64,000 bases of DNA from a virus, in the IMG/VR virus record IMGVR_UViG_3300034104_004920, positions 1-64,000 of that record; one strand, written 5' to 3'. Below the pieces are notes generated by a model, which had not been told where the DNA came from, made no database searches, and saw only the letters and a program-made list of their open reading frames with translations. The first letter of the stretch is position 1, and the number at the start of each line of letters is the position of its first letter. The translations under genes and the position numbers were made by a program. Below are positions 493 through 10,640 of the stretch, in pieces.

Positions 493-528
493 TTGACACG
501 GTCGCCAATATTATGTTATAATATTGGC
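493..528 (+). promoter_or_regulatory. Palindromic rightward promoter 1
   Basis: -35 TTGACA 493-498, 18-bp spacer, -10 TATAAT 517-522. Arms GCCAATATTAT (504-514) and ATAATATTGGC (518-528) form an 11-bp inverted repeat over the -10. It fires into the hairpin at 533-569 and towards the 3' end of the minus-strand gene at 603-767. Confidence 0.7.
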
Positions 529-532
529 GCCA

Positions 533-569
533 TAATACCCCTATAACCTGGTCAACAATAGGGGTATTA
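533..569. terminator. Hairpin after promoter 1
   Basis: TAATACCCCTAT (533-544) pairs with ATAGGGGTATTA (558-569), giving a 12-bp stem. It starts a few bases after the expected start site of promoter 1 and has no clear T run on either strand. Confidence 0.5.
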
Positions 570-574
570 GGTCA

Positions 575-607
575 AATAATAAGGGGCTATAAGCCCCTTT
601 TATTATT
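575..607. terminator. Bidirectional terminator of the leftmost minus-strand operon
   Basis: AATAATAAGGGGCT and AGCCCCTTTTATTATT form a stem with an ATA loop. The arms are A-rich and T-rich, so it can work on both strands. It overlaps the stop codon of the 54-residue gene at 603-767. Confidence 0.6.
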
Positions 608-767
608 CCCTGATATGTTCTAGTATATCCATTGCCAATTTTTCCATTTCGTCTGTAATATCCACATCAGACATCGGCTGTAGAGCCAGTTTAATAATAA
701 GTGCCAACCGTATCATTTCTTCGTGGCTGAGTGAAATAATATATTCAGTTTTGGTTTCAATTTGCAT
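603..767 (-). CDS. Small hypothetical protein, 54 aa
   Basis: A short open frame starting MQIETKTEYI and ending LEHIRE. A good Shine-Dalgarno (AAGGAGAATC) precedes the ATG at 767, which is the main support, together with its place as last gene of the operon 1918-603. The product looks helical and acidic, with no recognised motif. It lies 30 bp downstream of the SprT-like gene and ends in the 575-607 terminator. Function unknown. Confidence 0.6.
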   Translation of the reverse strand: MQIETKTEYIISLSHEEMIRLALIIKLALQPMSDVDITDEMEKLAMDILEHIRE

Positions 768-796
768 TTTTGATTCTCCTTTTGAAAATGCGGATT

Positions 797-1183
797 TTAG
801 TCCAAATCAGTAACGGGTGAATATAATTCTCCGGTACTGAATCCTAGATCATTTAATATCTTTTCCAAGTGTGCTGCAATTAATTGGAATCGGTCATCGT
901 GATGATAGTTTTCATTAAAGCTGTTATCCTCGATCATTTTGGCATGGATTAATTCGTGTGCAATTACCCCATACACATCAAAATTGGATTCTAGTGTCTG
1001 GCCTAAATTAATAACAATTTTGTGTTTTTGGAGACGATTATTGCGAAACACAGTATCGCACCAACCGGCCAAACGACGTTGAGTCTTATTAAAAACTCGG
1101 GTTTTCAATACTACGTCAACTGGTTTCTGTATTTCCAATACAGAAACCACGGCTTGAATAAGCAACAATACGTCAGATTTCAT
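797..1183 (-). CDS. SprT-like zinc metalloprotease, 128 aa
   Basis: The motif HELIHA near residues 77-82, with a further histidine cluster (HHDD) about 15 residues on, matches the zinc-binding arrangement of SprT-like metallopeptidases. Known family members include SPRTN, which cleaves DNA-protein crosslinks; a similar DNA-repair or host-takeover role is inference. Length suits a minimal catalytic domain without the C-terminal zinc ribbon. The gene lies 36 bp after the DEDDh exonuclease gene, separated by a hairpin, and no clear Shine-Dalgarno precedes the ATG. A second SprT-like gene lies at 4961-5326. Confidence 0.75.
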   Translation of the reverse strand: MKSDVLLLIQAVVSVLEIQKPVDVVLKTRVFNKTQRRLAGWCDTVFRNNRLQKHKIVINLGQTLESNFDVYGVIAHELIHAKMIEDNSFNENYHHDDRFQLIAAHLEKILNDLGFSTGELYSPVTDLD

Positions 1184-1216
1184 GGTGTGTTATATGGGGG
1201 TTATTAGCCCCCATAT
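1184..1216 (-). terminator. Hairpin between exonuclease and SprT-like genes
   Basis: TATGGGGG and CCCCCATA pair around CTAATAA (minus strand), just after the exonuclease stop. There is no T tract, so it may be an mRNA-processing or partial-termination hairpin. Confidence 0.45.
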
Positions 1217-1219
1217 ATT

Positions 1220-1918
1220 TTACTTGGCTACGAAATGTTCTTTTACTTGGTGTTTATTCCAGTCATATGGAATTACCTTTTCTCGCCAATCACGTTTTTT
1301 CAAGATATTGACCAAAATAGGAACCTCAAAATCTCGGGCATCTTCCAATGCAGTATGTGGCTCAGTCTTAAACTCGCCACTCACAAAACCACAAACACTT
1401 TCAGCTGTGGTTTTGTAGGTCATGTTTTGGTTGACAGTGGGAGAATTGAATAGGTGATTATCCATGCAAAACTGCCGATAGCGCTTAGTATGGGTAATAT
1501 TACCGATACTAGCGTGCCAAAGGCAGAATTTATCATTGAAAATGTTAAGATCAATTCCGGTTTTGTCGCACTTATCACGATCAAAAGCCAGATTGTATGC
1601 GGTAAGGGTTGGATTATATTTACCAACAGCCTGATTCAGCCATTTATTAATGGCAGCTGTACTGGCAAGCATACGAATACCCGAATTAAGCATGGAGACA
1701 TATGCTGCTTTACGCTTTTCCAAACCCTCATACCCCCAAATATCATTTGCACGTTTATCGTGGAACAATTCATATGTGCCATAATGGTCTTTTACCAATA
1801 CTGCACATTGGTTATAAATCTTGCCATCACGGTCAACAATAACCGCGGCAAAATCAGCCACGGTATTTTCCATCGTGGTTTCAGTATCCACCACGCACCA
1901 GAATTGCTTTTTAGCCAT
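1220..1918 (-). CDS. DEDDh 3'-5' exonuclease, 232 aa
   Basis: Three exonuclease motifs are visible: Exo I DTET near residue 11, Exo II with the aspartate of NLAFDRDK near residue 115, and Exo III HTALED (H-x4-D) near residue 205. This is the DnaQ / DNA polymerase III epsilon / oligoribonuclease fold, which degrades DNA or RNA from the 3' end with two metal ions. The ATG at 1918 is preferred over an upstream one at 2011, because the -35/-10 of the likely promoter (1983-2011) overlaps that longer N terminus and an AAGG lies before 1918. Likely role is early nucleic-acid degradation or proofreading; substrate unknown. Confidence 0.8.
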   Translation of the reverse strand: MAKKQFWCVVDTETTMENTVADFAAVIVDRDGKIYNQCAVLVKDHYGTYELFHDKRANDIWGYEGLEKRKAAYVSMLNSGIRMLASTAAINKWLNQAVGKYNPTLTAYNLAFDRDKCDKTGIDLNIFNDKFCLWHASIGNITHTKRYRQFCMDNHLFNSPTVNQNMTYKTTAESVCGFVSGEFKTEPHTALEDARDFEVPILVNILKKRDWREKVIPYDWNKHQVKEHFVAK

Positions 1919-1982
1919 ATTAACCTTCACACATGAAACCGGAAAGGGCCGGAGTCTCGCCCATGCTTTGCAGCACCTGCCG

Positions 1983-2011
1983 AGTGTACCGGTTTTTGTG
2001 ATGTATTGCAA
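1983..2011 (-). promoter_or_regulatory. Leftward promoter of the exonuclease operon
   Basis: On the minus strand, TTGCAA (2006-2011), a 17-bp spacer and TACACT (1983-1988). It serves the genes at 1918-1220, 1183-797 and 767-603 and is back to back with rightward promoter 2. Confidence 0.65.
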
Positions 2012-2046
2012 GCCCCTACAGTGTGGTCAACTATTGACCAGGCGGC

Positions 2047-2080
2047 TTGACGGGGGCCAATTATATAATATATAATTGGC
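2047..2080 (+). promoter_or_regulatory. Palindromic rightward promoter 2
   Basis: -35 TTGACG 2047-2052, 18-bp spacer, -10 TATAAT 2071-2076. Palindrome arms GCCAATTATAT (2056-2066) and ATATAATTGGC (2070-2080). A box GTGGTCAACTATTG lies just upstream (2023-2036); similar boxes precede several other members. Confidence 0.7.
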
Positions 2081-2083
2081 GCC

Positions 2084-2107
2084 AATATAAGGGTTTACCC
2101 TTATATT
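2084..2107. terminator. Hairpin after promoter 2
   Basis: AATATAAGGGT pairs with ACCCTTATATT, an 11-bp perfect stem with a TT loop. It sits between promoter 2 and the stop of the PQ-loop gene and can end that leftward operon. Confidence 0.55.
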
Positions 2108-2110
2108 GAT

Positions 2111-2359
2111 TTATTTCCTTTCCCAGATTTTATATCTTATCATTATGACGACGAAAAACAGATTTAGTATGTAGTTGAATAACAGTGGCATATCTCCTTT
2201 TGGAAATATATAAACAATGGTGAATAACTCCCCAAAGAACCAACAACCCAAGAAAAAGGGGTTTAATCCTCGGGCGTGGCCGTCTTTTGCACATTGCAAA
2301 ACCTGGGGAATTGCACATATTGCAAATAATATGCTACCAATCCAACCTATAGTTTCCAT
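2111..2359 (-). CDS. PQ-loop membrane protein, SemiSWEET-like, 82 aa
   Basis: Three hydrophobic segments (about residues 5-20, 33-50 and 58-75) and a PQ dipeptide in IPQV (residues 17-20, end of the first helix) match the bacterial SemiSWEET / PQ-loop fold. Those proteins are about 85-95 residues and dimerise to move sugars across the inner membrane. Start chosen at 2359, one base after the stop of the phosphatase gene, with AGGG upstream; an upstream ATG at 2392 would overlap that gene. A sugar or metabolite transporter in a phage is unusual; the substrate cannot be told. Confidence 0.6.
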   Translation of the reverse strand: METIGWIGSILFAICAIPQVLQCAKDGHARGLNPFFLGCWFFGELFTIVYIFPKGDMPLLFNYILNLFFVVIMIRYKIWERK

Positions 2360-2360
2360 T

Positions 2361-2825
2361 TTAGTGACCCTGAACCGAGGGAATATAAACACCGCGGATA
2401 TTGAAATGATCGCAAACTGCTTTTAGGTAACTCACATTGTCTTCGTAAAATACACAATCCGCAGTTTTGAATTGCTTCAAGTTGAAAAACTTTTGCAAAC
2501 CCTTGATTTTAAGAGTTTTGCCAGACTGATTATCACCGTCACGACGCGAGATAAGATAATCGGGACTGCCGAGAATCTCACGGATAAACACATTATCCAA
2601 TTCGCGCACAATACGCGCAGTGGCGATAATTACATAAGTATTTGGGTCTTGCAAATCACGACGATATTGAGACACAAGAGGAAGCAAACCATCTTGCATA
2701 CACCGATTTTCATTATCGCGCCAGTATTGCAAATCGATTTTGACAATACCATTTTCTGTTACCGTGCGGTAACGGTGGCTGCTATCAACGATCGTGCCGT
2801 CCATGTCATAAATTGCAACCTTCAT
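2361..2825 (-). CDS. HAD-superfamily phosphatase, 154 aa
   Basis: HAD motif I is DMDGT (residues 6-10, nucleophile Asp6 and Asp8), motif II is ATAR near residue 72, and the acidic motif IV is YEDN near residue 127. The C terminus resembles the polynucleotide 3'-phosphatase or deoxynucleotidase type of HAD enzyme found in phages. The natural substrate is inferred at best. The start MKVAIYDMDG at 2825 is set by motif I and by the promoter at 2853-2881; a longer frame would include the promoter. It is translationally coupled to the PQ-loop gene, with a 1-bp gap. Confidence 0.75.
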   Translation of the reverse strand: MKVAIYDMDGTIVDSSHRYRTVTENGIVKIDLQYWRDNENRCMQDGLLPLVSQYRRDLQDPNTYVIIATARIVRELDNVFIREILGSPDYLISRRDGDNQSGKTLKIKGLQKFFNLKQFKTADCVFYEDNVSYLKAVCDHFNIRGVYIPSVQGH

Positions 2826-2852
2826 TTTGAACCCCTTGTTTTGTAGAGCCCG

Positions 2853-2881
2853 AGTGTAGCACGTTCGCCCAGGCGACACAA
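2853..2881 (-). promoter_or_regulatory. Leftward promoter of the HAD phosphatase operon
   Basis: On the minus strand, TTGTGT (2876-2881), a 17-bp spacer and TACACT (2853-2858). The expected start is about 20 bases before the ATG at 2825. Confidence 0.65.
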
Positions 2882-2928
2882 GCCCCCAACAATGACCCTA
2901 CGTCGTGGTCAACCATTGATGTGGTGGC

Positions 2929-2961
2929 TTGACACGGCCCAATTTTATATTATAAAATTGG
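2929..2961 (+). promoter_or_regulatory. Palindromic rightward promoter 3
   Basis: -35 TTGACA 2929-2934; -10 either TATAAA at 2951-2956 (16-bp spacer) or TAAAAT at 2953-2958 (18 bp). Palindrome arms CCAATTTTAT (2939-2948) and ATAAAATTGG (2952-2961). Confidence 0.65.
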
Positions 2962-2963
2962 CG

Positions 2964-2996
2964 CCCCTATTAGGGTTTACCCTAATAGGGGTTTTT
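2964..2996 (+). terminator. Intrinsic terminator directly after promoter 3
   Basis: CCCCTATTAGGG (2964-2975) and CCCTAATAGGGG (2980-2991) form a 12-bp stem with a TTTA loop, followed by TTTTT (2992-2996). This is a textbook intrinsic terminator in the plus direction. A transcript from promoter 3 should end after only about 35 nt. Confidence 0.75.
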
Positions 2997-3000
2997 AAAT

Positions 3001-3023
3001 AATAAGGGGTATAACCCCTTATT
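3001..3023. terminator. Second hairpin, end of minus-strand operon 3
   Basis: AATAAGGGGT and ACCCCTTATT form a 10-bp stem with an ATA loop, just past the stop of the gene at 3027-3359. Confidence 0.5.
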
Positions 3024-3026
3024 ATG

Positions 3027-3359
3027 TTAGGCAATGGCTTTTGCAATATCTCGAGCCTTTGCCCCTAGCCGGTTCACAATATTTTCTGACCAGTGGCCGC
3101 CAATATTGCAGGGCAATACCTGCATACTCGCCCAACGGTCCAACACAAGATACTCGGCAACATCGTAGCGATACAGGGATTCTTCCACGCTGGCAAGACT
3201 CAGCGCAAATTTGCCAGTATCAATGCCGGTTTGCTTGATACCAACACAAACCCCCAGCAGGGGAAAATGAAAGATAACCACGTCGGGATAATCCGCCCGC
3301 ATATCTTGCAGAATATCCAATTCCGTATCATTCAAGACGGTTTGATTCACATTACGCAT
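3027..3359 (-). CDS. Hypothetical protein, 110 aa
   Basis: Not recognised. The protein begins MRNVNQTVLNDTELD and has a mixed alpha/beta look with one hydrophobic stretch (VVIFHFPLLGVCVGI, near residues 27-41). The ATG at 3359 follows AGAAAGGGCTTATC, a good ribosome site. It is second in an operon after the helix-turn-helix gene; two overlapping hairpins at 3395-3442 lie in the leader and may control its expression. Confidence 0.6.
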   Translation of the reverse strand: MRNVNQTVLNDTELDILQDMRADYPDVVIFHFPLLGVCVGIKQTGIDTGKFALSLASVEESLYRYDVAEYLVLDRWASMQVLPCNIGGHWSENIVNRLGAKARDIAKAIA

Positions 3360-3394
3360 GATAAGCCCTTTCTATGGCTTGGTTGGGAAAATGG

Positions 3395-3442
3395 TTTGCT
3401 TAGAGTATGTTATACCCTAAGCAAACCCCTTTCGGGGTTTGC
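3395..3442 (-). promoter_or_regulatory. Two mutually exclusive hairpins, attenuator-like
   Basis: On the minus strand the first hairpin is GCAAACCCC-GAAA-GGGGTTTGC (3442 to 3421). The second is TTTGCTTAG paired with CTAAGCAAA (3425 to 3395). The TTTGC at 3421-3425 belongs to both, so both cannot form fully. The pair sits between the helix-turn-helix gene and the 110-residue gene, a classic place for attenuation. Regulation is inferred. Confidence 0.5.
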
Positions 3443-3447
3443 GTCAA

Positions 3448-3780
3448 TCATTCGATTGGACGGGAATTGGCCAGTGCATCGAAGATCGCTTTCAATGCAC
3501 GCTTGTTAGCCTTGGTGAGACTGTCCACGTCAGGCTCCGACAGCATGAGGATTTTGCCGATAGCCTCGGCGTGTGCATCCTTCTTCACGGGAGACTCACC
3601 AGTCTTGGTAACATAGGTCTTCTTCTGGTAAACACCCTCACGACTCAGTTTCGCAACAATCGAGCGAACCGATTTACCGAGACTCTCGGCAAGGGCTTCG
3701 ACCGTAGTGCCGGCCTTGTACGCTTCGACCAGAGCAGCAGTCTGCTCAGGAGTATAATTCACAACCTTTTCACTAGCCAT
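3448..3780 (-). CDS. Helix-turn-helix DNA-binding protein, 110 aa
   Basis: A region around residues 13-45 reads as a helix-turn-helix (GKSVRSIVAKLSREGVY). This is closely repeated in the paralogue at 5921-6241, which also shares YVTKTGE after it. Similar small proteins occur in many phages and are thought to bind DNA; the target is unknown. The ATG at 3780 is preferred over 3807 because of the upstream GGAG. Two tandem leftward promoters serve it. It is one of two obvious candidates to bind the palindromes in this region. Confidence 0.65.
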   Translation of the reverse strand: MASEKVVNYTPEQTAALVEAYKAGTTVEALAESLGKSVRSIVAKLSREGVYQKKTYVTKTGESPVKKDAHAEAIGKILMLSEPDVDSLTKANKRALKAIFDALANSRPIE

Positions 3781-3853
3781 TTTCAGTTTCTCCGAGTTAA
3801 CACGCATGGGGAAATTTTGGCAATGCCGGGCAATCCCCTCAACCTATGCTGAT

Positions 3854-3882
3854 ATTATACAGGGTCAGTATTCCCCCGTCAA
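3854..3882 (-). promoter_or_regulatory. Leftward promoter, proximal, of the helix-turn-helix gene
   Basis: On the minus strand, TTGACG (3877-3882), a 17-bp spacer and TATAAT (3854-3859), close to consensus. It gives a leader of about 65 nt. Confidence 0.7.
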
Positions 3883-3926
3883 GTATTGTGTTTTCTTTCC
3901 TTTCTGTTCGTCGTCGTCAGGGACAC

Positions 3927-3955
3927 AGTATAACGGTTTTTCAGCCTGGACACAA
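3927..3955 (-). promoter_or_regulatory. Leftward promoter, distal, with orphan ribosome site
   Basis: On the minus strand, TTGTGT (3950-3955), a 17-bp spacer and TATACT (3927-3932), the same type as the promoter at 6589-6617. A strong AGAAAGGAAAG follows at about 3890-3903, but no start codon stands behind it. The next element is the promoter at 3854-3882. This looks like the remains of a cassette whose gene was lost. Confidence 0.6.
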
Positions 3956-4029
3956 TACCCTAGTGCAATGTGGGGTCTTTGCGCCAGGCGGTGATTGGCA
4001 GTTAACCAGGCGGTAGCCAGCAGTTAACC

Positions 4030-4073
4030 AGGGGTAAGTCCCTATTGACAGCTGAGTTAGATTGTGATATAAT
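4030..4073 (+). promoter_or_regulatory. Rightward promoter 4 (half-palindrome type)
   Basis: -35 TTGACA 4045-4050, 17-bp spacer, -10 TATAAT 4068-4073. Only the right half of the usual palindrome is kept (TATAATTTTGGCGC). A 23-bp block over the -35 and upstream (4030-4052) is identical to 6654-6676 at promoter 8, which also has 17-bp spacing. It drives the hairpin RNA at 4080-4179. Confidence 0.7.
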
Positions 4074-4079
4074 TTTGGC

Positions 4080-4179
4080 GCACCCCATAGGTGTTACCTA
4101 TGGGGTGCGGCGGCTCAATAGGTAACACCTATTGAGCCGCACACAAAAAAGCCGACAAAAACAGTCGGCTTTTTTGTGT
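4080..4179 (+). ncRNA. Candidate small RNA of three perfect hairpins
   Basis: Beginning at the expected start site of promoter 4, three stems follow. Hairpin 1 is 4080-4108 (13 bp, loop GTT). Hairpin 2 is 4110-4140 (14 bp, loop AAC). Hairpin 3 is 4141-4179 (16 bp) and ends in GTCGGCTTTTTT, an intrinsic terminator. The tops of hairpins 1 and 2 are exact reverse complements of each other over 15 nt (ATAGGTGTTACCTAT against ATAGGTAACACCTAT). They could kiss or re-pair. No open frame is present on either strand. The RNA is predicted only from sequence. Confidence 0.6.
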
Positions 4180-4184
4180 GGCCC

Positions 4185-4219
4185 TTGACAGGGCCCAAAA
4201 TTATATGTTATAATTTTGG
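4185..4219 (+). promoter_or_regulatory. Palindromic rightward promoter 5
   Basis: -35 TTGACA 4185-4190, 18-bp spacer, -10 TATAAT 4209-4214. Palindrome arms CCAAAATTAT (4195-4204) and ATAATTTTGG (4210-4219). The -35 itself is framed by GGCCCT and AGGGCC. Confidence 0.7.
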
Positions 4220-4223
4220 CGCA

Positions 4224-4251
4224 AATTAGCCGCCTGGCCAGGCGGCTAATT
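4224..4251. terminator. Hairpin after promoter 5
   Basis: A perfect 28-bp palindrome, AATTAGCCGCCTGG followed by its complement. It lies between promoter 5 and the stop of the 53-residue gene at 4264-4425. Confidence 0.55.
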
Positions 4252-4263
4252 ATACTGTGATTA

Positions 4264-4425
4264 TTATTCGTCGGTGTTGACGACAATGGTGGAAACGTGG
4301 GGGTCGGAATTGGGGACGTCGTCCAGCATCTTGACCCTATACGCCACCCAGTTGATGCTGGTGTAGTATTCCTGATGATGCTTGAAGTGTTGTTCGTCCC
4401 ACCATTCGATCATGTAAACCTTCAT
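4264..4425 (-). CDS. Small hypothetical protein, 53 aa
   Basis: Starts MKVYMIEWWDEQHFKHH and ends VVNTDE. It is tryptophan- and histidine-rich at the N terminus and acidic at the C terminus, with no known motif. The ATG at 4425 follows GAAAGGAACCC. It is a single-gene unit with its own promoter (4455-4484) and 3' hairpin, which supports it despite its size. Confidence 0.6.
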   Translation of the reverse strand: MKVYMIEWWDEQHFKHHQEYYTSINWVAYRVKMLDDVPNSDPHVSTIVVNTDE

Positions 4426-4454
4426 TTGGGTTCCTTTCGTGTTGCAGAGAACAC

Positions 4455-4520: not shown

Positions 4521-4555
4521 TTGACAGGGCCCAAAATTATATGTTATAATTTTGG
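4521..4555 (+). promoter_or_regulatory. Palindromic rightward promoter 6
   Basis: -35 TTGACA 4521-4526, 18-bp spacer, -10 TATAAT 4545-4550. From the -35 through GGCGC it is almost identical to promoter 5, with the same CCAAAATTAT / ATAATTTTGG palindrome. Confidence 0.7.
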
Positions 4556-4558
4556 CGC

Positions 4559-4591
4559 CATAATAACCCTATAATATATAGGGTTATTATG
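4559..4591. terminator. Hairpin after promoter 6
   Basis: CATAATAACCCTATA and TATAGGGTTATTATG form a perfect 15-bp stem with an ATA loop, 7 bp beyond the stop of the minus-strand gene at 4598. Confidence 0.55.
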
Positions 4592-4960: not shown

Positions 4961-5326
4961 TCAAATCCGTTTGTAGTTTACCATGTTATGGCATCGTTCT
5001 GGAGGCAGACCTAATTCTTTCATAATCTTTTTCCAGCTTTTGCCATGCCCAAAATCATTATACACCAGAAAAGCCACACAGTGTGCCAATTCATGGGGAA
5101 TAATGACGTTACAAAATTCGTCGGGATATTGTTCGAACAATTCAACCGACAAGTCTATATACTGCGGGTCGTGCTCAATAAAAGCACGTCCTGCGGTAGT
5201 TTTCAGCCGTTTATTCAAAACTACCGCAGGAGCAGTTTTGGTTAAGTTGGGGTACAGATTGCACAGTATGTCCCAAGTGTTTTGGGCACTGCGGTCTGCG
5301 ACTTGTTGCATTGTGGAGTCTTTCAT
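4961..5326 (-). CDS. SprT-like zinc metalloprotease, 121 aa, probably leaderless
   Basis: HELAH near residues 81-85 followed by a histidine in FGHGKSW gives the HExxH...H zinc site of SprT-like peptidases. It is only distantly similar to the protein at 797-1183, so it is a second, diverged copy rather than a recent duplicate. The ATG at 5326 starts exactly 7 nt after a strong -10 (5334-5339) and no Shine-Dalgarno can be seen, so the mRNA is probably leaderless. It heads an operon with the small membrane protein and a 53-residue gene. Confidence 0.75.
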   Translation of the reverse strand: MKDSTMQQVADRSAQNTWDILCNLYPNLTKTAPAVVLNKRLKTTAGRAFIEHDPQYIDLSVELFEQYPDEFCNVIIPHELAHCVAFLVYNDFGHGKSWKKIMKELGLPPERCHNMVNYKRI

Positions 5327-5397: not shown

Positions 5398-5432
5398 TTG
5401 ACACGGTCGCCAATATTATATTATAATATTGG
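5398..5432 (+). promoter_or_regulatory. Palindromic rightward promoter 7
   Basis: -35 TTGACA 5398-5403, 18-bp spacer, -10 TATAAT 5422-5427. Core palindrome GCCAATATTAT / ATAATATTGGC, the same sequence class as promoter 1. Confidence 0.7.
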
Positions 5433-5434
5433 CG

Positions 5435-5462
5435 CCAGTATTAGGGTTTACCCTAATACTGG
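5435..5462. terminator. Hairpin after promoter 7
   Basis: CCAGTATTAGGG and CCCTAATACTGG make a 12-bp stem with a TTTA loop. It ends the leftward operon 6581-5468. Confidence 0.55.
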
Positions 5463-5467
5463 CCTTA

Positions 5468-5920: not shown

Positions 5921-6241
5921 TCACACGATCAACGAGAGCTTTTGCAGAATCTTTTGCAATGCGGTTTTGTTCGCCTTGGTGAGACTGCTAGTCTCGGGCT
6001 CTGTCAATTCACAAAGAACCCCGATTTTGTCTGCCAGCTCTTCTTTTGAAACAACTGTTTCACCAGTCTTGGTAACATACTCCTTTTTCTTGTAAACACC
6101 TTCCCGGCTCAGTTTGGCCACCACACTGCGAACACTCTTGCCCAGCGTGGCTGCAATACTTTCCACGGGAACACCCTTGCTATACCCGTCCAGCATTTGT
6201 TGGACCTGCTCGGGAGTGTAGTTTGCGGTTTTCTCAGTCAT
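5921..6241 (-). CDS. Helix-turn-helix DNA-binding protein, 106 aa (paralogue of 3448-3780)
   Basis: NYTPEQ near the N terminus, GKSVRSVVAKLSREGVY in the middle and YVTKTGE after it align without gaps to the protein at 3448-3780, as does LTKAN near the C terminus. The recognition-helix region is nearly unchanged while the flanks have diverged. The two may bind the same kind of site, perhaps with different partners. A good AAGGAAAG lies before the ATG. It sits mid-operon, behind a 31-residue membrane peptide. Regulatory role is inferred from the fold. Confidence 0.65.
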   Translation of the reverse strand: MTEKTANYTPEQVQQMLDGYSKGVPVESIAATLGKSVRSVVAKLSREGVYKKKEYVTKTGETVVSKEELADKIGVLCELTEPETSSLTKANKTALQKILQKLSLIV

Positions 6242-6581: not shown

Positions 6582-6588
6582 GGGATAG

Positions 6589-6617: not shown

Positions 6618-6653
6618 TACCCTAGTGCATCGTGTGGTCTTTGAACCAGGCCT

Positions 6654-6697
6654 AGGGGTAAGTCCCTATTGACAGCAAGAATTTGGTGTGGTATAAT
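6654..6697 (+). promoter_or_regulatory. Rightward promoter 8 (half-palindrome type)
   Basis: -35 TTGACA 6669-6674, 17-bp spacer, -10 TATAAT 6692-6697. Bases 6654-6676 repeat the 23-bp block of promoter 4 exactly. It stands in tandem with promoter 9. Confidence 0.7.
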
Positions 6698-6707
6698 TTT
6701 GGCGCCA

Positions 6708-6736
6708 CAAAAACCCTACGATCTGTAGGGTTTTTG
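6708..6736 (+). terminator. Terminator after promoter 8
   Basis: CAAAAACCCTAC and GTAGGGTTTTTG form a 12-bp stem whose right arm ends in TTTTT. It lies between promoters 8 and 9, with no gene between, so promoter 8 appears to make only this hairpin. Confidence 0.6.
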
Positions 6737-6747
6737 CAGCCAGGCCG

Positions 6748-6782
6748 TTGACACGGCCCAAAATTATGTGTTATAATTTTGG
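6748..6782 (+). promoter_or_regulatory. Palindromic rightward promoter 9
   Basis: -35 TTGACA 6748-6753, 18-bp spacer, -10 TATAAT 6772-6777, palindrome arms CCAAAATTAT and ATAATTTTGG. Promoter 10 at 7076 is identical from the -35 through the following hairpin. Confidence 0.7.
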
Positions 6783-6787
6783 CGCCA

Positions 6788-6816
6788 CAAAGCCCCCACA
6801 TTCTGTGGGGGCTTTG
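6788..6816. terminator. Hairpin after promoter 9
   Basis: CAAAGCCCCCACA and TGTGGGGGCTTTG form a 13-bp stem with a TTC loop, 4 bp beyond the stop of the gene at 6821-6979. Confidence 0.6.
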
Positions 6817-6820
6817 GTTA

Positions 6821-6979
6821 TCACTCCCACATAGTTTTACGGGTCGCGATAGAGGCGATTGTAGCAAGAGGAAATTTCTTCCTGAAGTCTTCGATGGCCA
6901 GATCGCGGGTCTCAGCACGAATAGCCACCGAGTAGCTGCCGAAACCTTCAACTGCGTTAAAGTAGAACCAGGTCTTCAT
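6821..6979 (-). CDS. Small hypothetical protein, 52 aa
   Basis: Starts MKTWFYFNAVEGFGSYS and ends RKTMWE. The ATG at 6979 is preceded by AAAGGAACACGAG, a leader shared with several neighbours. A much longer frame through the upstream promoter is not used. Predicted beta strands followed by a basic helix; no family recognised. Single-gene unit. Confidence 0.6.
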   Translation of the reverse strand: MKTWFYFNAVEGFGSYSVAIRAETRDLAIEDFRKKFPLATIASIATRKTMWE

Positions 6980-7008
6980 CTCGTGTTCCTTTCTGCTGCT
7001 GTGAACAC

Positions 7009-7036
7009 AGTATAGCACAACACCGCAACACCTAAC
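7009..7036 (-). promoter_or_regulatory. Leftward promoter of the 52-residue gene
   Basis: -10 TATACT at 7009-7014 (minus strand), followed by the shared leader TGTGTTCACAGCAGCAG. The -35 is weak (GTTAGG, 7031-7036, 16-bp spacer). Confidence 0.45.
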
Positions 7037-7075
7037 TTTTAACCCCTCAGTGTGGTCAACTATCCGGGCACGCGC

Positions 7076-7110
7076 TTGACACGGCCCAAAATTATGTGTT
7101 ATAATTTTGG
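7076..7110 (+). promoter_or_regulatory. Palindromic rightward promoter 10
   Basis: -35 TTGACA 7076-7081, 18-bp spacer, -10 TATAAT 7100-7105. Identical to promoter 9, including its palindrome. The upstream box GTGGTCAACTAT is at 7052-7063. Confidence 0.7.
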
Positions 7111-7115
7111 CGCCA

Positions 7116-7144
7116 CAAAGCCCCCACATTCTGTGGGGGCTTTG
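7116..7144. terminator. Hairpin after promoter 10
   Basis: Same 13-bp stem and TTC loop as at 6788-6816. It lies 12 bp beyond the stop of the gene at 7157-7348. Confidence 0.6.
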
Positions 7145-7156
7145 ATTGATTGGTGA

Positions 7157-7348
7157 TTACTTTGACTTCAAGTCATTCGTGTGCCATTCCACGCTACGCG
7201 CCACGCTCTCGTTTTCGCGCACAGCACTGGCCAGCATACCCGTCAGGTAACCGACAACAAAGGACTCGGAATAGCCCTTGCTAGCAGCGCGCTCGCGGGC
7301 GGCCTGGAGCAGGGCTTGGACTTGGTTGTAGGCTTCGGTAGCAGTCAT
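7157..7348 (-). CDS. Small hypothetical protein, 63 aa
   Basis: Starts MTATEAYNQVQALLQ and is mostly alpha-helical, with an Ala-rich, Arg-rich amphipathic N-terminal half and a short hydrophobic stretch (VVGYLTGMLA). AAAGGAACACGAG precedes the ATG. Single-gene unit between promoter 7379-7406 and the 7116-7144 hairpin. Function unknown. Confidence 0.6.
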   Translation of the reverse strand: MTATEAYNQVQALLQAARERAASKGYSESFVVGYLTGMLASAVRENESVARSVEWHTNDLKSK

Positions 7349-7378
7349 CTCGTGTTCCTTTCCTGTTGCAGTGAACGC

Positions 7379-7406
7379 AGTATAGCACAAGACCGTGCCC
7401 GTGCAA
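7379..7406 (-). promoter_or_regulatory. Leftward promoter of the 63-residue gene
   Basis: On the minus strand, TTGCAC (7401-7406), a 16-bp spacer and TATACT (7379-7384), then the shared leader ending in AAAGGAACACGAG. Confidence 0.55.
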
Positions 7407-7453
7407 GACCTAAATTTTAACCCCTCAGTGTGGTCAACTATCCAGGCCACCGC

Positions 7454-7488
7454 TTGACACGGGCCAATTATATAATATATAATTGGCG
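7454..7488 (+). promoter_or_regulatory. Palindromic rightward promoter 11
   Basis: -35 TTGACA 7454-7459, 18-bp spacer, -10 TATAAT 7478-7483. Palindrome GCCAATTATAT / ATATAATTGGC as in promoter 2. Confidence 0.7.
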
Positions 7489-7490
7489 CC

Positions 7491-7514
7491 CGAATAGGGG
7501 TTTACCCCTATTCG
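7491..7514. terminator. Hairpin after promoter 11
   Basis: CGAATAGGGG and CCCCTATTCG, a 10-bp stem with a TTTA loop, directly abutting the stop codon of the gene at 7515-7646. Confidence 0.55.
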
Positions 7515-7646
7515 TTATTCTTCATATACTATGAAGTATGGAGTTTCCCCATAATCTCCAGAGTATTCAATGGGATGGTCCGGATTGAACAGAGTCATAT
7601 CAATCCCAGTATCCCAGAAAACATCAAAAACCCAGTCCTGATACAT
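7515..7646 (-). CDS. Small acidic protein, 43 aa
   Basis: Begins MYQDWVFDVFWDTG and ends VYEE. The ATG at 7646 follows GAAAGGAAGTAT. It shares the pattern YQDWV ... D ... NP ... EY with the 44-residue gene at 8619-8753, so the two are probably duplicates in different operons. The aromatic and strongly acidic composition is typical of phage proteins that bind host enzymes, but no target can be named. Last gene of the operon 8096-7515. Confidence 0.55.
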   Translation of the reverse strand: MYQDWVFDVFWDTGIDMTLFNPDHPIEYSGDYGETPYFIVYEE

Positions 7647-7656
7647 ATACTTCCTT

Positions 7657-7881
7657 TCAATAGTCTAGCCAATCGCCCATACTCTCGATTTTGGAGGCTG
7701 CTTCCTCCACACTAACCACATACTGAACCCGATCAACCCAGTTGGGGCTATCCGGGCCAATATACATAACACAACACCAGCGGCCCGTAGCACCACGCGC
7801 AAGACAGTGGATACCCTGTATGGGCCGGGGATACTTCGTACCCGTCATGTCGCATTCGGTGATCATGCCAAAAATCATCAT
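7657..7881 (-). CDS. Hypothetical protein, 74 aa
   Basis: Starts MMIFGMITECDMTG; contains two adjacent cysteines (RWCCVMY) and an acidic helical C terminus. AGGAG nine bases before the first ATG supports the start. Middle gene of a three-gene operon. No family recognised. Confidence 0.6.
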   Translation of the reverse strand: MMIFGMITECDMTGTKYPRPIQGIHCLARGATGRWCCVMYIGPDSPNWVDRVQYVVSVEEAASKIESMGDWLDY

Positions 7882-7901
7882 GGTATATACTCCTGATTTG
7901 A

Positions 7902-8096
7902 TTACGCCATTACTCGGTCGATATAAGCCTGGGCCTGTTCCACAGTCTTAAAAGACTTGACCTGCTTGGTGACCCAGTAGGCGTCCTGCCGGATGGTGTC
8001 AAACTTGAACACCTGCACCTGGACAGTGCGAGTAGCCCACGGTACAACAAACGCCCTGACAGTACCAAGGGCCGGGGGAGTGTAGGTGGTGGTCAT
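7902..8096 (-). CDS. Hypothetical protein, 64 aa
   Basis: Starts MTTTYTPPALGTVRAF; alternating valines and aromatics suggest a small beta sheet, followed by a helix (KTVEQAQAYIDRVMA) of the kind seen in many small phage proteins. AGAGGAACACGAG precedes the ATG. First gene of the operon 8096-7515. Function unknown. Confidence 0.6.
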   Translation of the reverse strand: MTTTYTPPALGTVRAFVVPWATRTVQVQVFKFDTIRQDAYWVTKQVKSFKTVEQAQAYIDRVMA

Positions 8097-8126
8097 CTCG
8101 TGTTCCTCTTGTGTTGCTGTGAACAC

Positions 8127-8154
8127 AGTATAGCACAACACCACACCAGCACAA
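8127..8154 (-). promoter_or_regulatory. Leftward promoter of the operon 8096-7515
   Basis: On the minus strand, TTGTGC (8149-8154), a 16-bp spacer and TATACT (8127-8132), then the shared TGTGTTCACAGCAACA leader. Confidence 0.55.
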
Positions 8155-8201
8155 CATCAAAATTTTAACCCCTCGACCAGGTCAACTATTGTGCGGGGGG
8201 C

Positions 8202-8236
8202 TTGACCAGGCCACCAAAATTATGATATAATTTTGG
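8202..8236 (+). promoter_or_regulatory. Palindromic rightward promoter 12
   Basis: -35 TTGACC 8202-8207, 18-bp spacer, -10 TATAAT 8226-8231. Palindrome CCAAAATTAT / ATAATTTTGG with a shorter centre than in promoters 5 and 9. Confidence 0.7.
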
Positions 8237-8240
8237 CGCC

Positions 8241-8269
8241 CGAATAAGGGTTGTCCCTTATTCGGTTTT
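8241..8269 (+). terminator. Hairpin after promoter 12
   Basis: CGAATAAGGG and CCCTTATTCG, a 10-bp stem with a TTGT loop, followed by GTTTTG. Confidence 0.55.
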
Positions 8270-8289
8270 GTCTTACTGAGAGTAGGATA

Positions 8290-8451
8290 TCAACCTATCG
8301 AGTAAGTGCCTCCGCGTGGCACGCCGATGTCATCTAGTAGGACGTCAATTACCGTTTGGGAAACCACAGCCCTACCATTGACAAACACGGCATCGACCAA
8401 GTAAGAATACCTGCGGCCGTTGAAACGGATGGAAACAAAAACCTTTTTCAT
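8290..8451 (-). CDS. Small hypothetical protein, 53 aa
   Basis: Starts MKKVFVSIRFNGRRYSYLV and looks like a compact beta-rich fold with a glycine-containing end (GGTYSIG). AGGAGAACATGA precedes the ATG at 8451. Single-gene unit with its own promoter and 3' hairpin. No family recognised. Confidence 0.6.
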   Translation of the reverse strand: MKKVFVSIRFNGRRYSYLVDAVFVNGRAVVSQTVIDVLLDDIGVPRGGTYSIG

Positions 8452-8478
8452 TTCATGTTCTCCTGCTGCTGTGAACAC

Positions 8479-8506
8479 AGTATAACACAAGACCGTGCCT
8501 GGACAA
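8479..8506 (-). promoter_or_regulatory. Leftward promoter of the 53-residue gene
   Basis: On the minus strand, TTGTCC (8501-8506), a 16-bp spacer and TATACT (8479-8484). Confidence 0.5.
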
Positions 8507-8555
8507 CAATAAATTTTTGACCCTACAACCTACTCGGCTATTGTGGCCAAGCGGC

Positions 8556-8590
8556 TTGACCAGGCCACCAAAATTATGATATAATTTTGG
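8556..8590 (+). promoter_or_regulatory. Palindromic rightward promoter 13
   Basis: -35 TTGACC 8556-8561, 18-bp spacer, -10 TATAAT 8580-8585. Identical to promoter 12 from the -35 through GGCGCC. Confidence 0.7.
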
Positions 8591-8596
8591 CGCCCC

Positions 8597-8616
8597 AATA
8601 GGGGTAAACCCCTATT
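8597..8616. terminator. Hairpin after promoter 13
   Basis: AATAGGGGT and ACCCCTATT, a 9-bp stem with a two-base loop, 2 bp before the stop of the minus-strand gene at 8619. Confidence 0.5.
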
Positions 8617-8618
8617 AA

Positions 8619-8753
8619 TTAGTCCGACCAACACCCCAATAATGGGGGATACTCTGTTTCTGGATATTCCCAGTTTACAGGATTATCCATTGCAATCTCC
8701 GTCAAATCCCAGTCATACAAATAGGGCAAAACCCAGTCTTGATAGTCGCTCAT
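8619..8753 (-). CDS. Small acidic protein, 44 aa
   Basis: Begins MSDYQDWVLPYLYDWD and ends GCWSD. It resembles the 43-residue protein at 7515-7646 in its YQDWV start, NP in the middle and WEYPE-like end. ATAAGGG lies nine bases before the ATG. It is the last gene of the operon 9307-8619, as its relative is the last gene of another operon. Confidence 0.5.
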   Translation of the reverse strand: MSDYQDWVLPYLYDWDLTEIAMDNPVNWEYPETEYPPLLGCWSD

Positions 8754-8764
8754 TTGTCGAACCC

Positions 8765-8899
8765 TTATTCTGTTAGTTCTCTGTATACCTGATCATAACT
8801 AACACAGTATTCCCATGCCGCATTTCTGCAAGCATCAAAGAAACTCATGTGATATACAGACATCAATTGCTTTGCGTAACACACGGCAGCTTCAAGCAT
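8765..8899 (-). CDS. Small hypothetical protein, 44 aa
   Basis: Starts MLEAAVCYAKQLMS and contains three cysteines. The ATG at 8899 overlaps the end of the preceding gene, with AGAAAG upstream; an alternative ATG at 8917 would add six residues but lacks a ribosome site. Probably helical. No family recognised. Confidence 0.45.
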   Translation of the reverse strand: MLEAAVCYAKQLMSVYHMSFFDACRNAAWEYCVSYDQVYRELTE

Positions 8900-9092
8900 T
8901 TTGTTGCTTTCTGGCATAAACACACAGTTTGTAATAATGGTTTACCATATCCATCAACTGCTGGGCATTTTCTCTTTGTTTAGGATCCTTCAATTCATTT
9001 TCAATTTGTTCGATAAACGCTTTGAAGGTAACGAACAGAAAACCATCGCTCATGGTTTCGGAAATGTATTGCAGTTTTTCTGTAGTATTCAT
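8892..9092 (-). CDS. Hypothetical helical protein, 66 aa
   Basis: Starts MNTTEKLQYISETM; mostly alpha-helical with a charged middle (IEQIENELKDPKQREN). GAAAGGGTAAGA precedes the ATG. Second gene in the operon 9307-8619. Function unknown. Confidence 0.6.
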   Translation of the reverse strand: MNTTEKLQYISETMSDGFLFVTFKAFIEQIENELKDPKQRENAQQLMDMVNHYYKLCVYARKQQNA

Positions 9093-9103
9093 TTCTTACC
9101 CTT

Positions 9104-9307
9104 TCAAACCCGGAACGTGGGGCTCACGCCGACCTTGTCAGCCACCATCCACACGTACTCCACGTACACTTCTTCTTCGCGGGCTTCCTGAGCCGCCACG
9201 TCCAGATCCCAGTTGGCCTGGTCGTATTCTTCACGAATGGTGATTTCGGCCATGTCCAGCTCAAAGGACTCGATGTCTTCACGGGTCATGTCAGCGGGGT
9301 AGTACAT
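9104..9307 (-). CDS. Acidic helical protein, 67 aa
   Basis: Starts MYYPADMTREDIESFELDM. Very rich in Glu and Asp (EAREEEVYVEY in the second half) and tryptophan-containing, the composition of DNA-mimic or host-enzyme-binding phage proteins, which is only a suggestion. AAGGAGCCCCAAG precedes the ATG at 9307. First gene of its operon. Confidence 0.6.
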   Translation of the reverse strand: MYYPADMTREDIESFELDMAEITIREEYDQANWDLDVAAQEAREEEVYVEYVWMVADKVGVSPTFRV

Positions 9308-9338
9308 CTTGGGGCTCCTTGTCTGTGTCAGTAGAGTT

Positions 9339-9368
9339 AGTATAACGCAAAACAGCGTGTTGTGTCAA
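9339..9368 (-). promoter_or_regulatory. Leftward promoter of the operon 9307-8619
   Basis: On the minus strand, TTGACA (9363-9368), an 18-bp spacer and TATACT (9339-9344). Confidence 0.6.
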
Positions 9369-9402
9369 ACCCGATCTTTGTGTGGGGTCTTTGGCCAGGC
9401 CC

Positions 9403-9438
9403 TTGACCTGGCCCAGAATTACATGATATAATTCTGGC
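9403..9438 (+). promoter_or_regulatory. Palindromic rightward promoter 14
   Basis: -35 TTGACC 9403-9408, 18-bp spacer, -10 TATAAT 9427-9432, palindrome CCAGAATTA / TAATTCTGG. The arms differ from promoters 9-13 but stay complementary, so the symmetry itself is being conserved. Confidence 0.7.
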
Positions 9439-9443
9439 GCCAT

Positions 9444-9470
9444 AAAGCCCTTACAGTCTGTAAGGGCTTT
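9444..9470. terminator. Hairpin after promoter 14
   Basis: AAAGCCCTTACA and TGTAAGGGCTTT, a 12-bp stem with a GTC loop. The same hairpin recurs at 10062-10088. Confidence 0.6.
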
Positions 9471-9474
9471 GGTA

Positions 9475-9666
9475 TCAATGCCATTCCGGCTTGATCCTGG
9501 GCTTCTTCATACGCCAGAACATACGCCACTTGCATCCCTGGGGCGTAAGGGCTTGGGTATTTTCGTAGACCACGAACCTGTTACCTCTCAGCTTTCCAAC
9601 CGGCTTGCCCGGGAGCTGGCCACGCAATAGCCTTTCGGCAGTCTTTTCATAGGTCTTGACAAGCAT
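9475..9666 (-). CDS. Basic hypothetical protein, 63 aa
   Basis: Starts MLVKTYEKTAERLLRGQ and carries many Lys and Arg residues with a tryptophan-rich C terminus (WRMFWRMKKPRIKPEW), so nucleic-acid binding is plausible but unproven. The ATG at 9666 follows GAGGAAGACTGCG. A GTG at 9681 overlapping the upstream stop is an alternative start. Second gene of the operon 9926-9475. Confidence 0.55.
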   Translation of the reverse strand: MLVKTYEKTAERLLRGQLPGKPVGKLRGNRFVVYENTQALTPQGCKWRMFWRMKKPRIKPEWH

Positions 9667-9677
9667 CGCAGTCTTCC

Positions 9678-9926
9678 TCACTTCTTCTTCAAGAAAGTCT
9701 TTTCGTAATTGTCGATCATTGCAGTCTGTCGCTGATTCTGGTCCCTCAGCTTCTTAAGCTCAATTTGACTGAAGCCATACCGGGCTTCCATGTAGTTGAT
9801 GTAGTCGAGGGATTCTTCCAGCAGCTTCCAGAGCTTATCAGCATCGTGAGCCGCAAGCAGGGCTTTTCGAATCGTCTTGAGCCTAAAATCCTGGTCGCTG
9901 GACAGTTGGGGTTGATCGTTAGGCAT
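9678..9926 (-). CDS. Hypothetical helical protein, 82 aa
   Basis: Starts MPNDQPQLSSDQDFRLK; nearly all predicted helix with a charged C terminus ending KKK. AAGGGAGCAAAG precedes the ATG at 9926; longer frames would run through the promoter. No family recognised. Confidence 0.6.
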   Translation of the reverse strand: MPNDQPQLSSDQDFRLKTIRKALLAAHDADKLWKLLEESLDYINYMEARYGFSQIELKKLRDQNQRQTAMIDNYEKTFLKKK

Positions 9927-9957
9927 CTTTGCTCCCTTGTGTGTTGCAGTGAAGACA

Positions 9958-9987
9958 GTATAACCCAAAACACCACAGTCAGTCAAA
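9958..9987 (-). promoter_or_regulatory. Leftward promoter of the operon 9926-9475
   Basis: On the minus strand, TTGACT (9982-9987), an 18-bp spacer and TATACT (9958-9963). It is back to back with rightward promoter 15. Confidence 0.6.
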
Positions 9988-10020
9988 CCCGAGTGTTTTG
10001 TGGTGGAATTGTGTAGGGCC

Positions 10021-10055
10021 TTGACGGGGGCCAGAATATTGTGATATAATTCTGG
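10021..10055 (+). promoter_or_regulatory. Palindromic rightward promoter 15
   Basis: -35 TTGACG 10021-10026, 18-bp spacer, -10 TATAAT 10045-10050, palindrome CCAGAATAT / ATATAATTCTGG (imperfect). Confidence 0.65.
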
Positions 10056-10061
10056 CGCCAT

Positions 10062-10088
10062 AAAGCCCTTACAGTCTGTAAGGGCTTT
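10062..10088. terminator. Hairpin after promoter 15
   Basis: AAAGCCCTTACA and TGTAAGGGCTTT with a GTC loop, 7 bp before the stop of the minus-strand gene at 10095. Confidence 0.6.
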
Positions 10089-10094
10089 GGTCAA

Positions 10095-10337
10095 TCACAC
10101 CAACCGATACCGACCCGCATCATACTCGCGAAGCACAGCCCGACCTATGTTGGCGTTAGTGTCCATATCGAGCCCCCACAACACAACCACGCCGGAAATG
10201 TGGCGTGAGGCATCGTGAAAGAAAACCTCTACATCGTCCAGGTTTAGCTCTACCGCATCCTGTTCTTCAAACACAATGTCCAAGAATTGTTGATTGTTGT
10301 AGACCCGGCCGGTGTTGTAAACAATGTGCCTTCTCAT
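10095..10337 (-). CDS. Hypothetical protein, 80 aa
   Basis: Starts MRRHIVYNTGRVYNNQQ; beta-rich with an acidic centre (FEEQDAVELNLDDVEVFF). AAAGGAACACTAAG precedes the ATG. Second gene of the operon 10515-10095. No family recognised. Confidence 0.6.
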   Translation of the reverse strand: MRRHIVYNTGRVYNNQQFLDIVFEEQDAVELNLDDVEVFFHDASRHISGVVVLWGLDMDTNANIGRAVLREYDAGRYRLV

Positions 10338-10359
10338 CTTAGTGTTCCTTTGTGGGTTA

Positions 10360-10515
10360 TTAGAAGCTGCCGGAAAGTATGGGGATGTTACGGGCCGGAC
10401 CGATAAGGACAACATCCTCCAGAGGAGCGGTGTCGTCCAGGTACGGATGCTGAATGCGAACTTCCTCAGACGGGTCAAGGGTTTGCAGAATCTGGATCAG
10501 GTCTTGTACGGTCAT
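10360..10515 (-). CDS. Small hypothetical protein, 51 aa
   Basis: Starts MTVQDLIQILQTLDPSEEV and ends ILSGSF. The pattern of a helix, then DP-E-V and beta strands, is seen in many small phage and prophage proteins of unknown role. AGAGGAACACCAAA precedes the ATG. First gene of the rightmost unit of the array. Confidence 0.6.
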   Translation of the reverse strand: MTVQDLIQILQTLDPSEEVRIQHPYLDDTAPLEDVVLIGPARNIPILSGSF

Positions 10516-10546
10516 TTTGGTGTTCCTCTCGTGTTGCAGTGATGAC

Positions 10547-10576
10547 AGTATAACGCAAAACACCACAGTCAGTCAA
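10547..10576 (-). promoter_or_regulatory. Leftward promoter of the operon 10515-10095
   Basis: On the minus strand, TTGACT (10571-10576), an 18-bp spacer and TATACT (10547-10552). Divergent from the rightward promoter at 10611. Confidence 0.6.
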
Positions 10577-10610
10577 ACCCGATCTTTGTGTGGGGTCTTT
10601 GTGTGGCCCC

Positions 10611-10640
10611 TTGACGTGGCCTAAAAACACATGGTACAAT
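10611..10640 (+). promoter_or_regulatory. Rightward promoter 16, towards the structural genes
   Basis: -35 TTGACG 10611-10616, 18-bp spacer, -10 TACAAT 10635-10640. It keeps the flanking GGCC of the array members but has no palindrome and no hairpin behind it. It faces the terminase genes, which supports reading the whole array as real promoters. Confidence 0.6.

Follow-up and report, generated by a model that had tools for sequence, protein, structure and literature searches.

Promoter-like palindromes facing away from the early genes of an uncultured T5-like phage and its relatives

Why would a phage line its early region with near-consensus promoters that point away from the genes around them? 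The question arises at positions 493 to 10,640 of the window, by which we mean the whole 64,000-nucleotide stretch analysed here (bases 1-64000 of the 97,277-bp virus record IMGVR_UViG_3300034104_004920). The sequence-only reading had described about 16 rightward promoters at this locus, mostly lying in palindromes and facing a hairpin, and had attributed their symmetry to a palindrome-binding regulator. We assign the phage to the T5-like phages because its TerL gene (11319-12599) matches theirs, with the Vibrio D239/70E phages on top at 48% identity, and because it encodes a corresponding set of terminase, head, tail, tape-measure, polymerase, helicase, SbcC-like and ribonucleotide reductase genes. 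No cultured near relative was found, and its g1220 and A2-like early proteins had no tblastn match among 50,697 phage records.

All 16 sites were recovered, every one on the plus strand, and their boxes are as close to consensus as had been claimed: with a -35 TTGACA and a -10 TATAAT 16-18 bp apart as the yardstick, the match to sigma70 is 12/12 at nine sites, 11/12 at six and 10/12 at 10611. The spacer measures 18 bp at 14 of the 16 and 17 bp at the other two (4045 and 6669). At 13 sites (493, 2047, 2929, 4185, 4521, 5398, 6748, 7076, 7454, 8202, 8556, 9403 and 10021) the -10 box lies within an inverted repeat, the shortest dyads being those of 10021 (7 bp) and 9403 (9 bp), while at 4045, 6669 and 10611 it does not. 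A hairpin that folds better than shuffled sequence (z -2.4 to -15.7) follows at every site except 10611 (z -0.5), and a GGCGC follows the -10 in all palindromic copies and both copies with a 17-bp spacer, but not at 10611. Chance or AT-richness as the source of the array is ruled out by shuffle and pattern counts: TTGAC-19N-TATAAT with at most one mismatch is found 20 times in the window where 2.4 would be expected, a number reached in 0 of 100 shuffles, and TTGACN{17,20}TAWAATN{0,4}GGCGC occurs 17 times forward and 0 times in reverse across the 97-kb record, with 0 hits for a reversed-pattern control. This pattern scan found no similar elements on the opposite strand or elsewhere in the record, and an Rfam covariance-model search of the window matched no known RNA family. 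The earlier statement that the sites oppose all local genes holds for the elements of the array and fails for 10611, which faces the plus-strand genes terS and terL.

Each element is built to a common plan that reads TTGACA CGG, a GC patch, a left arm, (TG)n, a TATAAT that forms part of a right arm ending in GG, then CGC[C/A] and a second inverted repeat; a TGn often precedes TATAAT. Within this plan the spacer reads as the exact reverse complement of the -10/discriminator that follows it. GGCGC comes 0-4 nt after the -10 (modes 3 and 1), most dyads measure 23 or 25 bp, and the loop spans 0-5 nt. When spacers were shuffled among copies sharing the same -10 geometry, the number of copies with stems of at least 8 bp averaged 84 and never exceeded 99 over 300 permutations, compared to 151 of 204 unique copies in reality. 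The left arm fits its own right arm in 102 cases and that of another copy in 6, with about ten right-arm types present, and stem lengths are bimodal, either absent (2-6 bp) or near-perfect (8-12 bp). Across 160 dyads there are three mismatches in total, all of them A.C and none G.T. Comparison with a close relative, L002 (TerL 94%), gives the same picture: in palindromic copies only the GC patch or the loop has changed, apart from 493 and 2929, whose two arms have changed in concert as whole-arm swaps, while the spacer of the non-palindromic copy at 4045 drifts freely. The covariation of the palindrome arms that had been claimed from a single genome is thus borne out by the permutations, by the fit of each arm to its own partner and by the relative. 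Because the arms co-vary, mismatches are nearly absent and G.T pairs are not favoured, the constraint on the core looks like one on the self-complementarity of DNA and not on one RNA strand. A one-strand RNA hairpin as the reason for the core palindrome was rejected since wobble pairs, which a structured RNA would tolerate, are absent (0 G.T against 3 A.C in the core; the downstream repeat has 8 G.T against 11 A.C).

The downstream inverted repeat is a separate and equally regular component, with arms of at least 8 bp in 177 of 226 unique copies versus 15 of 1130 shuffles. It mostly begins 0-5 nt after GGCGC, and its sequences are extremely diverse. Some of the hairpins in the window have the look of an intrinsic terminator, with a U-tract after a GC-rich stem, but across relatives most hairpins lack even a TTT there.

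How far does this arrangement extend beyond one record? The pattern TTGACN{17,22}TAWAATN{0,3}TGGCGC matched at least 119 IMG/VR stretches, 95 of which encode homologues of the early or terminase proteins of the window, and 259 copies with an 18-bp spacer were gathered from at least 86 stretches. TerL identity across the element-bearing set is 46-69%. None of the 59 multi-copy stretches has mixed orientation, and wherever terS is present the copies lie on its strand and upstream of it (167/167). Opposition to the early genes is likewise conserved: copies oppose the polynucleotide kinase gene in 160/160 comparisons, g1220 in 155/155, the A2-like gene in 194/196 and SprT2 in all, with 143-196 comparisons per early gene and two exceptions altogether. 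We therefore rejected the idea that these are promoters for plus-strand genes, save for 10611, since in 138 of 146 classifiable copies, and in all homology-anchored cases but two, the gene that follows runs the opposite way. As a check on ascertainment we turned to loci fetched by TerL only (L001-L009) together with the window, in which GGCGC follows TTGAC-19N-TA[TA]AAT upstream of ter in 64/64 cases. The sequence-only reading would have fallen had relatives kept the hairpins and lost the -35/-10 boxes, which they have not. Among 120 AT-rich palindromes that end in GG before CGC and were collected without requiring a promoter, 118 have a -35 box matching at five or more of six positions; of the remaining two, one turns out to be an element read on the reverse strand and the other has TTGACA with TACAAT. 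No convincing match to the element was found in cultured phages, plasmids or bacterial genomes, a match in JSF10 being rejected as merely a terminator-like hairpin; T5 itself was searched, and its nicks and promoters lack the element.

The elements are also places where genomes break and rejoin. Relative to the window, L002 has lost two gene cassettes from element to element (8202 to 8556 and 9403 to 10021), and both junctions lie inside elements, while other small indels do not. Whole cores have been exchanged between sites in the same comparison. Because all copies share a core, they act as homologous joints for losing or exchanging early-gene cassettes.

What the elements do is a harder question. 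Each occupies the gap that separates the end of a leftward early operon from the promoter of the following one, and we tentatively favour, with somewhat less than even confidence, a reading in which they are host-sigma70 promoter/hairpin boundary elements between tandem early operons that double as recombination joints in the manner of promoter early stem-loops (PeSLs) and are perhaps gated by cruciforms. The transcription, insulation and supercoil gating that this entails are what we infer. Host RNA polymerase would begin short plus-strand transcripts at GGCGC, the expected start, and the first ~30-40 nt would fold into the hairpin; polymerase, hairpin or both would keep plus-strand transcription from running antisense into the operon and would block leftward read-through into the next one. 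Read as DNA, the palindrome would respond to supercoiling: each element lies just behind a leftward promoter, in the stretch that transcribing polymerases leave negatively supercoiled, and such supercoiling would favour extrusion of a cruciform over the -10, throttling the plus promoter and buffering torsion. Such a response is suggested also by the hairpins of phage N4, which extrude at physiological levels of supercoiling in the DNA that enters first (PMC4496689). A bolder version, in which spacer/-10 complementarity lets supercoil-driven extrusion switch host sigma70 promoters and so brings an N4-like logic for the cell's own polymerase to every first-entering operon boundary, with GGCGC maybe serving as a nicking entry, seems to us rather doubtful.

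Several points weigh against this boundary reading. The plus-strand starts and RNAs are predicted ones, supercoil gating would follow by analogy only, and the GC-rich discriminator may weaken the promoters. A polymerase sitting on the promoter would halt one that approaches it before any transcription of the downstream hairpin, and roadblock and hairpin are therefore not simple to combine. Termination is itself doubtful because many of the relatives' hairpins lack a U-tract, TTT being found near the 3' side in just 65 of 177. The copies are mutually related and whole cores are swapped, as at 2929, so that covariation may partly reflect core copying, and hairpin-templated (template-switch) correction could be a non-selective source of perfect palindromes. 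Finally, our gene caller is crude and left 85 copies unclassified.

Intergenic repeats that combine promoter and stem-loop are an already known kind, of which PeSLs and the repeats of halovirus HF2 are examples. PeSLs are reportedly treated in Arbiol 2010 and Comeau 2014, and their promoters drive the next gene. Our elements share with them the repeated intergenic promoter with a stem-loop and, in the two L002 indels, the role as joints of gene content, but not a promoter directed toward the adjacent early gene. PeSLs of T4-like phages are host-type promoters with a stem-loop between small early genes that shuffle as cassettes (PMC4503421), whereas our elements face away from all early genes, carry the stem-loop downstream of the promoter and have the -10 itself in a palindrome. 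With the early promoters of the N4 virion RNA polymerase the elements share a hairpin that covers the core of the promoter close to the -10 and whose bases are partly arbitrary as long as they pair (PMC4496689). The N4 promoters are confined to the first-entering ~10% of the genome, where supercoil-driven extrusion is the known mechanism (PMC4496689); they serve a virion T7-like polymerase, have 5-7-bp stems and drive early genes, in contrast to the sigma70 consensus, the 9-12-bp stems and the absence of a following gene in our case. The HF2 repeats resemble the elements in being repeated and conserved in position across a virus genus, and they are proven promoters with long counter-transcripts (PMC8707807); they are archaeal promoters, however, and the abstract reports no palindrome over the core together with a hairpin (PMC8707807).

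A dimeric phage or host protein that binds the -10 palindrome and switches all plus promoters together, yielding tiny regulatory or antisense RNAs, is the strongest of the rival explanations, yet in our view an unlikely one. It is true that the palindromes cover the -10 exactly, that the region encodes two A2/D5-like DNA-binding proteins and that A2-like genes occur in 67 element-bearing stretches. In some relatives, moreover, the downstream palindrome is a recognisable host site. The chromosomal parS core GTTTCACGTGAAAC is present in 15 exact copies, of which 14 stand 31-53 nt downstream of an element (in L048, L082, L030, L051, L062, L080, L097, L099, L111, L121 and L124); these phages have ParB-type sites of the host in their early region. 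Fur-box-like palindromes (AAATG[AC]GAATnATTC[GT]CATTT) occupy the hairpin slot in L048, L055, L067, L082, L042 and L113, with eight of nine within 80 nt after an element. The core palindromes, however, offer no fixed half-site: arms such as AAAATTAT, ATATTAT, ATTATAT, ATTTTAT and AGAATTA occur within one genome, and dyad length (mostly 23 or 25 bp), loop and arm sequence vary while each arm matches its own partner, which argues for self-complementarity and against the step from symmetry to a palindrome-binding regulator. We do not favour such a regulator, and T5 and Vibrio D239, T5-like phages that bear A2, lack an array of this kind in the stretches examined. A Fur-box-like sequence similar to those above, GCGAATGATAATGAGAATC, is found in T5 near 9.7 kb, right after the first T5 nick.

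Kinship with T5 suggests another explanation, distinctly unlikely in our estimate, namely promoter-coupled nicking: GGCGC would be a T5-type interruption site (N-R/GCGC-N) that the promoter bubble lays open on the non-template strand, with hairpins on its flanks, and the array would mark nicks in the mature strand. The T5 single-chain interruptions share with the elements an R/GCGC motif, the strand relative to terL and a T5-like phage as carrier, but they are few, do not lie at promoters and follow R/GCGCRGG (PMC3517423, AY543070). Every GGCGC copy fits the loose NPu/GCGCN on the terL-sense strand, the strand that the four annotated T5 nicks also take relative to terL (T5 record AY543070), and GGCGC stands 0-4 nt after the -10 and not at one distance, as though it were a signal of its own. 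The terminal promoters of the family have R/GCGCRGG-like starts, and three exact matches to the major-nick consensus R/GCGCRGG (PMC3517423) lie at 192, 237 and 281 on the plus strand (192-288), inside TTTT[GC]CACTGGCGCAGGTG repeats. Strand, GCGC motif and T5 kinship thus agree. Against this, the strict R/GCGCRGG is not what the elements carry, the base after GGCGC being C in 140, A in 73, G in 18 and T in 1 of 232 copies, and the T5 nick sites lack a promoter, while their common upstream GTAA-containing motif is absent at the elements.

The setting of the array resembles that of T5 in a further respect. The plus-strand motif GGGCGGTTAACAGACTA at 10643-10658 is the counterpart of the T5 genome-end motif GGCGGTTAGCAGACTA: GGCGGTTAACAGACTA at 10644 corresponds to the T5 copy located 42 nt from the left end, in both terminal repeats, and the same motif stands ahead of terS in Vibrio D239 and L004. 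In T5 the injection-stop region and the first nick lie 9.1-10.1 kb from the left, motif-bearing end (T5 record), and here a T5-type terminus motif at one edge of the array is likewise found with nick-like repeats ~10 kb off. From this layout we infer that 493-10640 is the counterpart of the T5 first-step-transfer DNA. Its products include two A2/D5-like DNA-binding proteins, a polynucleotide-kinase-like protein and two SprT-like proteins, and every gene runs leftward.

A late antisense switch, in which late-firing plus promoters read through the hairpins, use antisense RNA and collision to silence the early operons, and feed the terminase and structural genes, appears very unlikely. All copies do point toward terS/terL, many hairpins lack a U-tract, and a hairpin at the extreme 5' end would stabilise a long RNA; several window hairpins, however, resemble bidirectional terminators, and the terS-adjacent promoter is the very one without palindrome or hairpin. 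Least probable of these explanations is a recombination or selfish repeat, a PeSL-like cassette joint whose promoter activity is incidental and whose palindromes are kept perfect by template-switch correction. The deletion borders inside elements and the swapped cores speak for it, but joints alone need neither a -35, spacing and -10 that are kept even where the palindrome is missing (4045, 6669) nor an orientation that is invariant in all multi-copy stretches. A classical bidirectional promoter, which shares with the elements the symmetry around the -10, was rejected on geometry, with one shared -10 and starts 7-25 bp apart (PMC10268837) compared to the ~26-28 bp that two arms would give, and on a minus side that lacks both a -35 and TGn.

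To our knowledge, the novelty of the elements lies in four features retained throughout a large group of uncultured T5-like phages: a spacer complementary to the -10 of the same promoter, an orientation invariably opposed to the genes, a constant GGCGC and a downstream repeat conserved in structure only. Should the promoters fire, this would be a widespread, undescribed early-region layout, with a self-complementary promoter that points backward and a structure-only hairpin at the close of each small operon. The layout would then provide one system for studying how DNA structure, through supercoiling and cruciforms, controls promoters on newly injected DNA, and would bear on the purpose of T5-type nicks and of first-step-transfer DNA. 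As reagents, the elements are promoter-grade sequences with a natural control, since palindromic and non-palindromic copies stand side by side.

Individually, the plus-strand elements of the window are laid out as follows. Element 1 (493-569) has its core at 493-530 (TTGACA..18..TATAAT, palindrome GCCAATATTAT/ATAATATTGGC, GGCGC) and its inverted repeat at 533-569. Element 2 (2047-2108) combines a core at 2047-2082, with a 12-1-12 palindrome, and a hairpin at 2083-2108, and element 3 (2929-2992) a core at 2929-2964, with TAAAAT as its -10, and a hairpin at 2963-2992 that L002 retains next to a core of another type. The non-palindromic element 4 (4045-4179) is followed by a predicted RNA (4078-4179) of three tandem near-perfect hairpins (-77.8 kcal/mol, z -15.7), the last of them U-rich and terminator-like, of the A6/T6 bidirectional type; it is a candidate small RNA of ~100 nt and is conserved in L002 and L003. 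Core and hairpin lie at 4185-4222 (palindrome CCAAAATTAT/ATAATTTTGG) and 4224-4251 in element 5 (4185-4251), at 4521-4558 and 4559-4591 in element 6 (4521-4591), and at 5398-5435 (palindrome 12-1-12) and 5434-5463 in element 7 (5398-5463). Element 8 (6669-6736), also non-palindromic, has its hairpin at 6708-6736 (A5..T5 bidirectional-terminator type) and is the tandem partner of element 9 (6748-6816; core 6748-6785, hairpin 6788-6816). Such non-palindromic copies, often CCCTATTGACA, occur in tandem pairs in which they come first and a palindromic copy follows 77-140 bp later, as in 4045+4185 and 6669+6748 and also in L023, L024 and L079.

Elements 10 (7076-7144; core 7076-7113, hairpin 7116-7144) and 11 (7454-7514; core 7454-7489, hairpin 7491-7514) precede the two that border the first L002 deletion, element 12 (8202-8265; core 8202-8239, hairpin 8240-8265 with a T-rich tail) and element 13 (8556-8616; core 8556-8593, hairpin 8597-8616). 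The second deletion is bordered by element 14 (9403-9473; core 9403-9440 with 9-bp arms CCAGAATTA, hairpin to 9473) and element 15 (10021-10091; core 10021-10058 with its 7-bp dyad, hairpin to 10091). The last of the 16 sites, TTGACG-18-TACAAT at 10611-10640, is the sole one to face plus-strand genes (terS at 10841, terL at 11319). Leftward early promoters at 9339-9368, 9957-9986 and 10547-10576 (minus strand) stand back to back with the divergent plus element, exactly 35 bp from its -35 box. A related plus-strand promoter of the terminal type (TTGACT..TTTTGCACTG TATAAT GTGGGCGCAG) at 118-155, without a palindrome, was absent from the earlier list of 16.

Some further features of the record were observed along the way. 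Bases 1-197 are repeated at its end (97081-97277) with one mismatch, and the record is therefore an essentially closed map; the tape-measure protein is one of the two largest open reading frames of the phage. An A2-like/D5-like DNA-binding protein is encoded by an early gene at 3448-3780 on the minus strand, with a paralogue at 5921-6241, yet no A1-sized open reading frame was seen in this early region. Two genes of SprT-like metalloprotease fold lie at 797-1183 and 4961-5326. A GGGCGGTTANC[AG]GAC motif that matches the T5 chromosome-end motif precedes terS in the window (10643-10658), L004 (1436), L002 (9324) and L013 (20288); in this phage group it is likely the boundary of the terminal repeat or the site of terminase action. 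The T5-nick-like TTTT[GC]CACTGGCGCAGGTG repeats fall within 118-300, and close to them palindromic TTATATAAGC units are repeated at 330-410.

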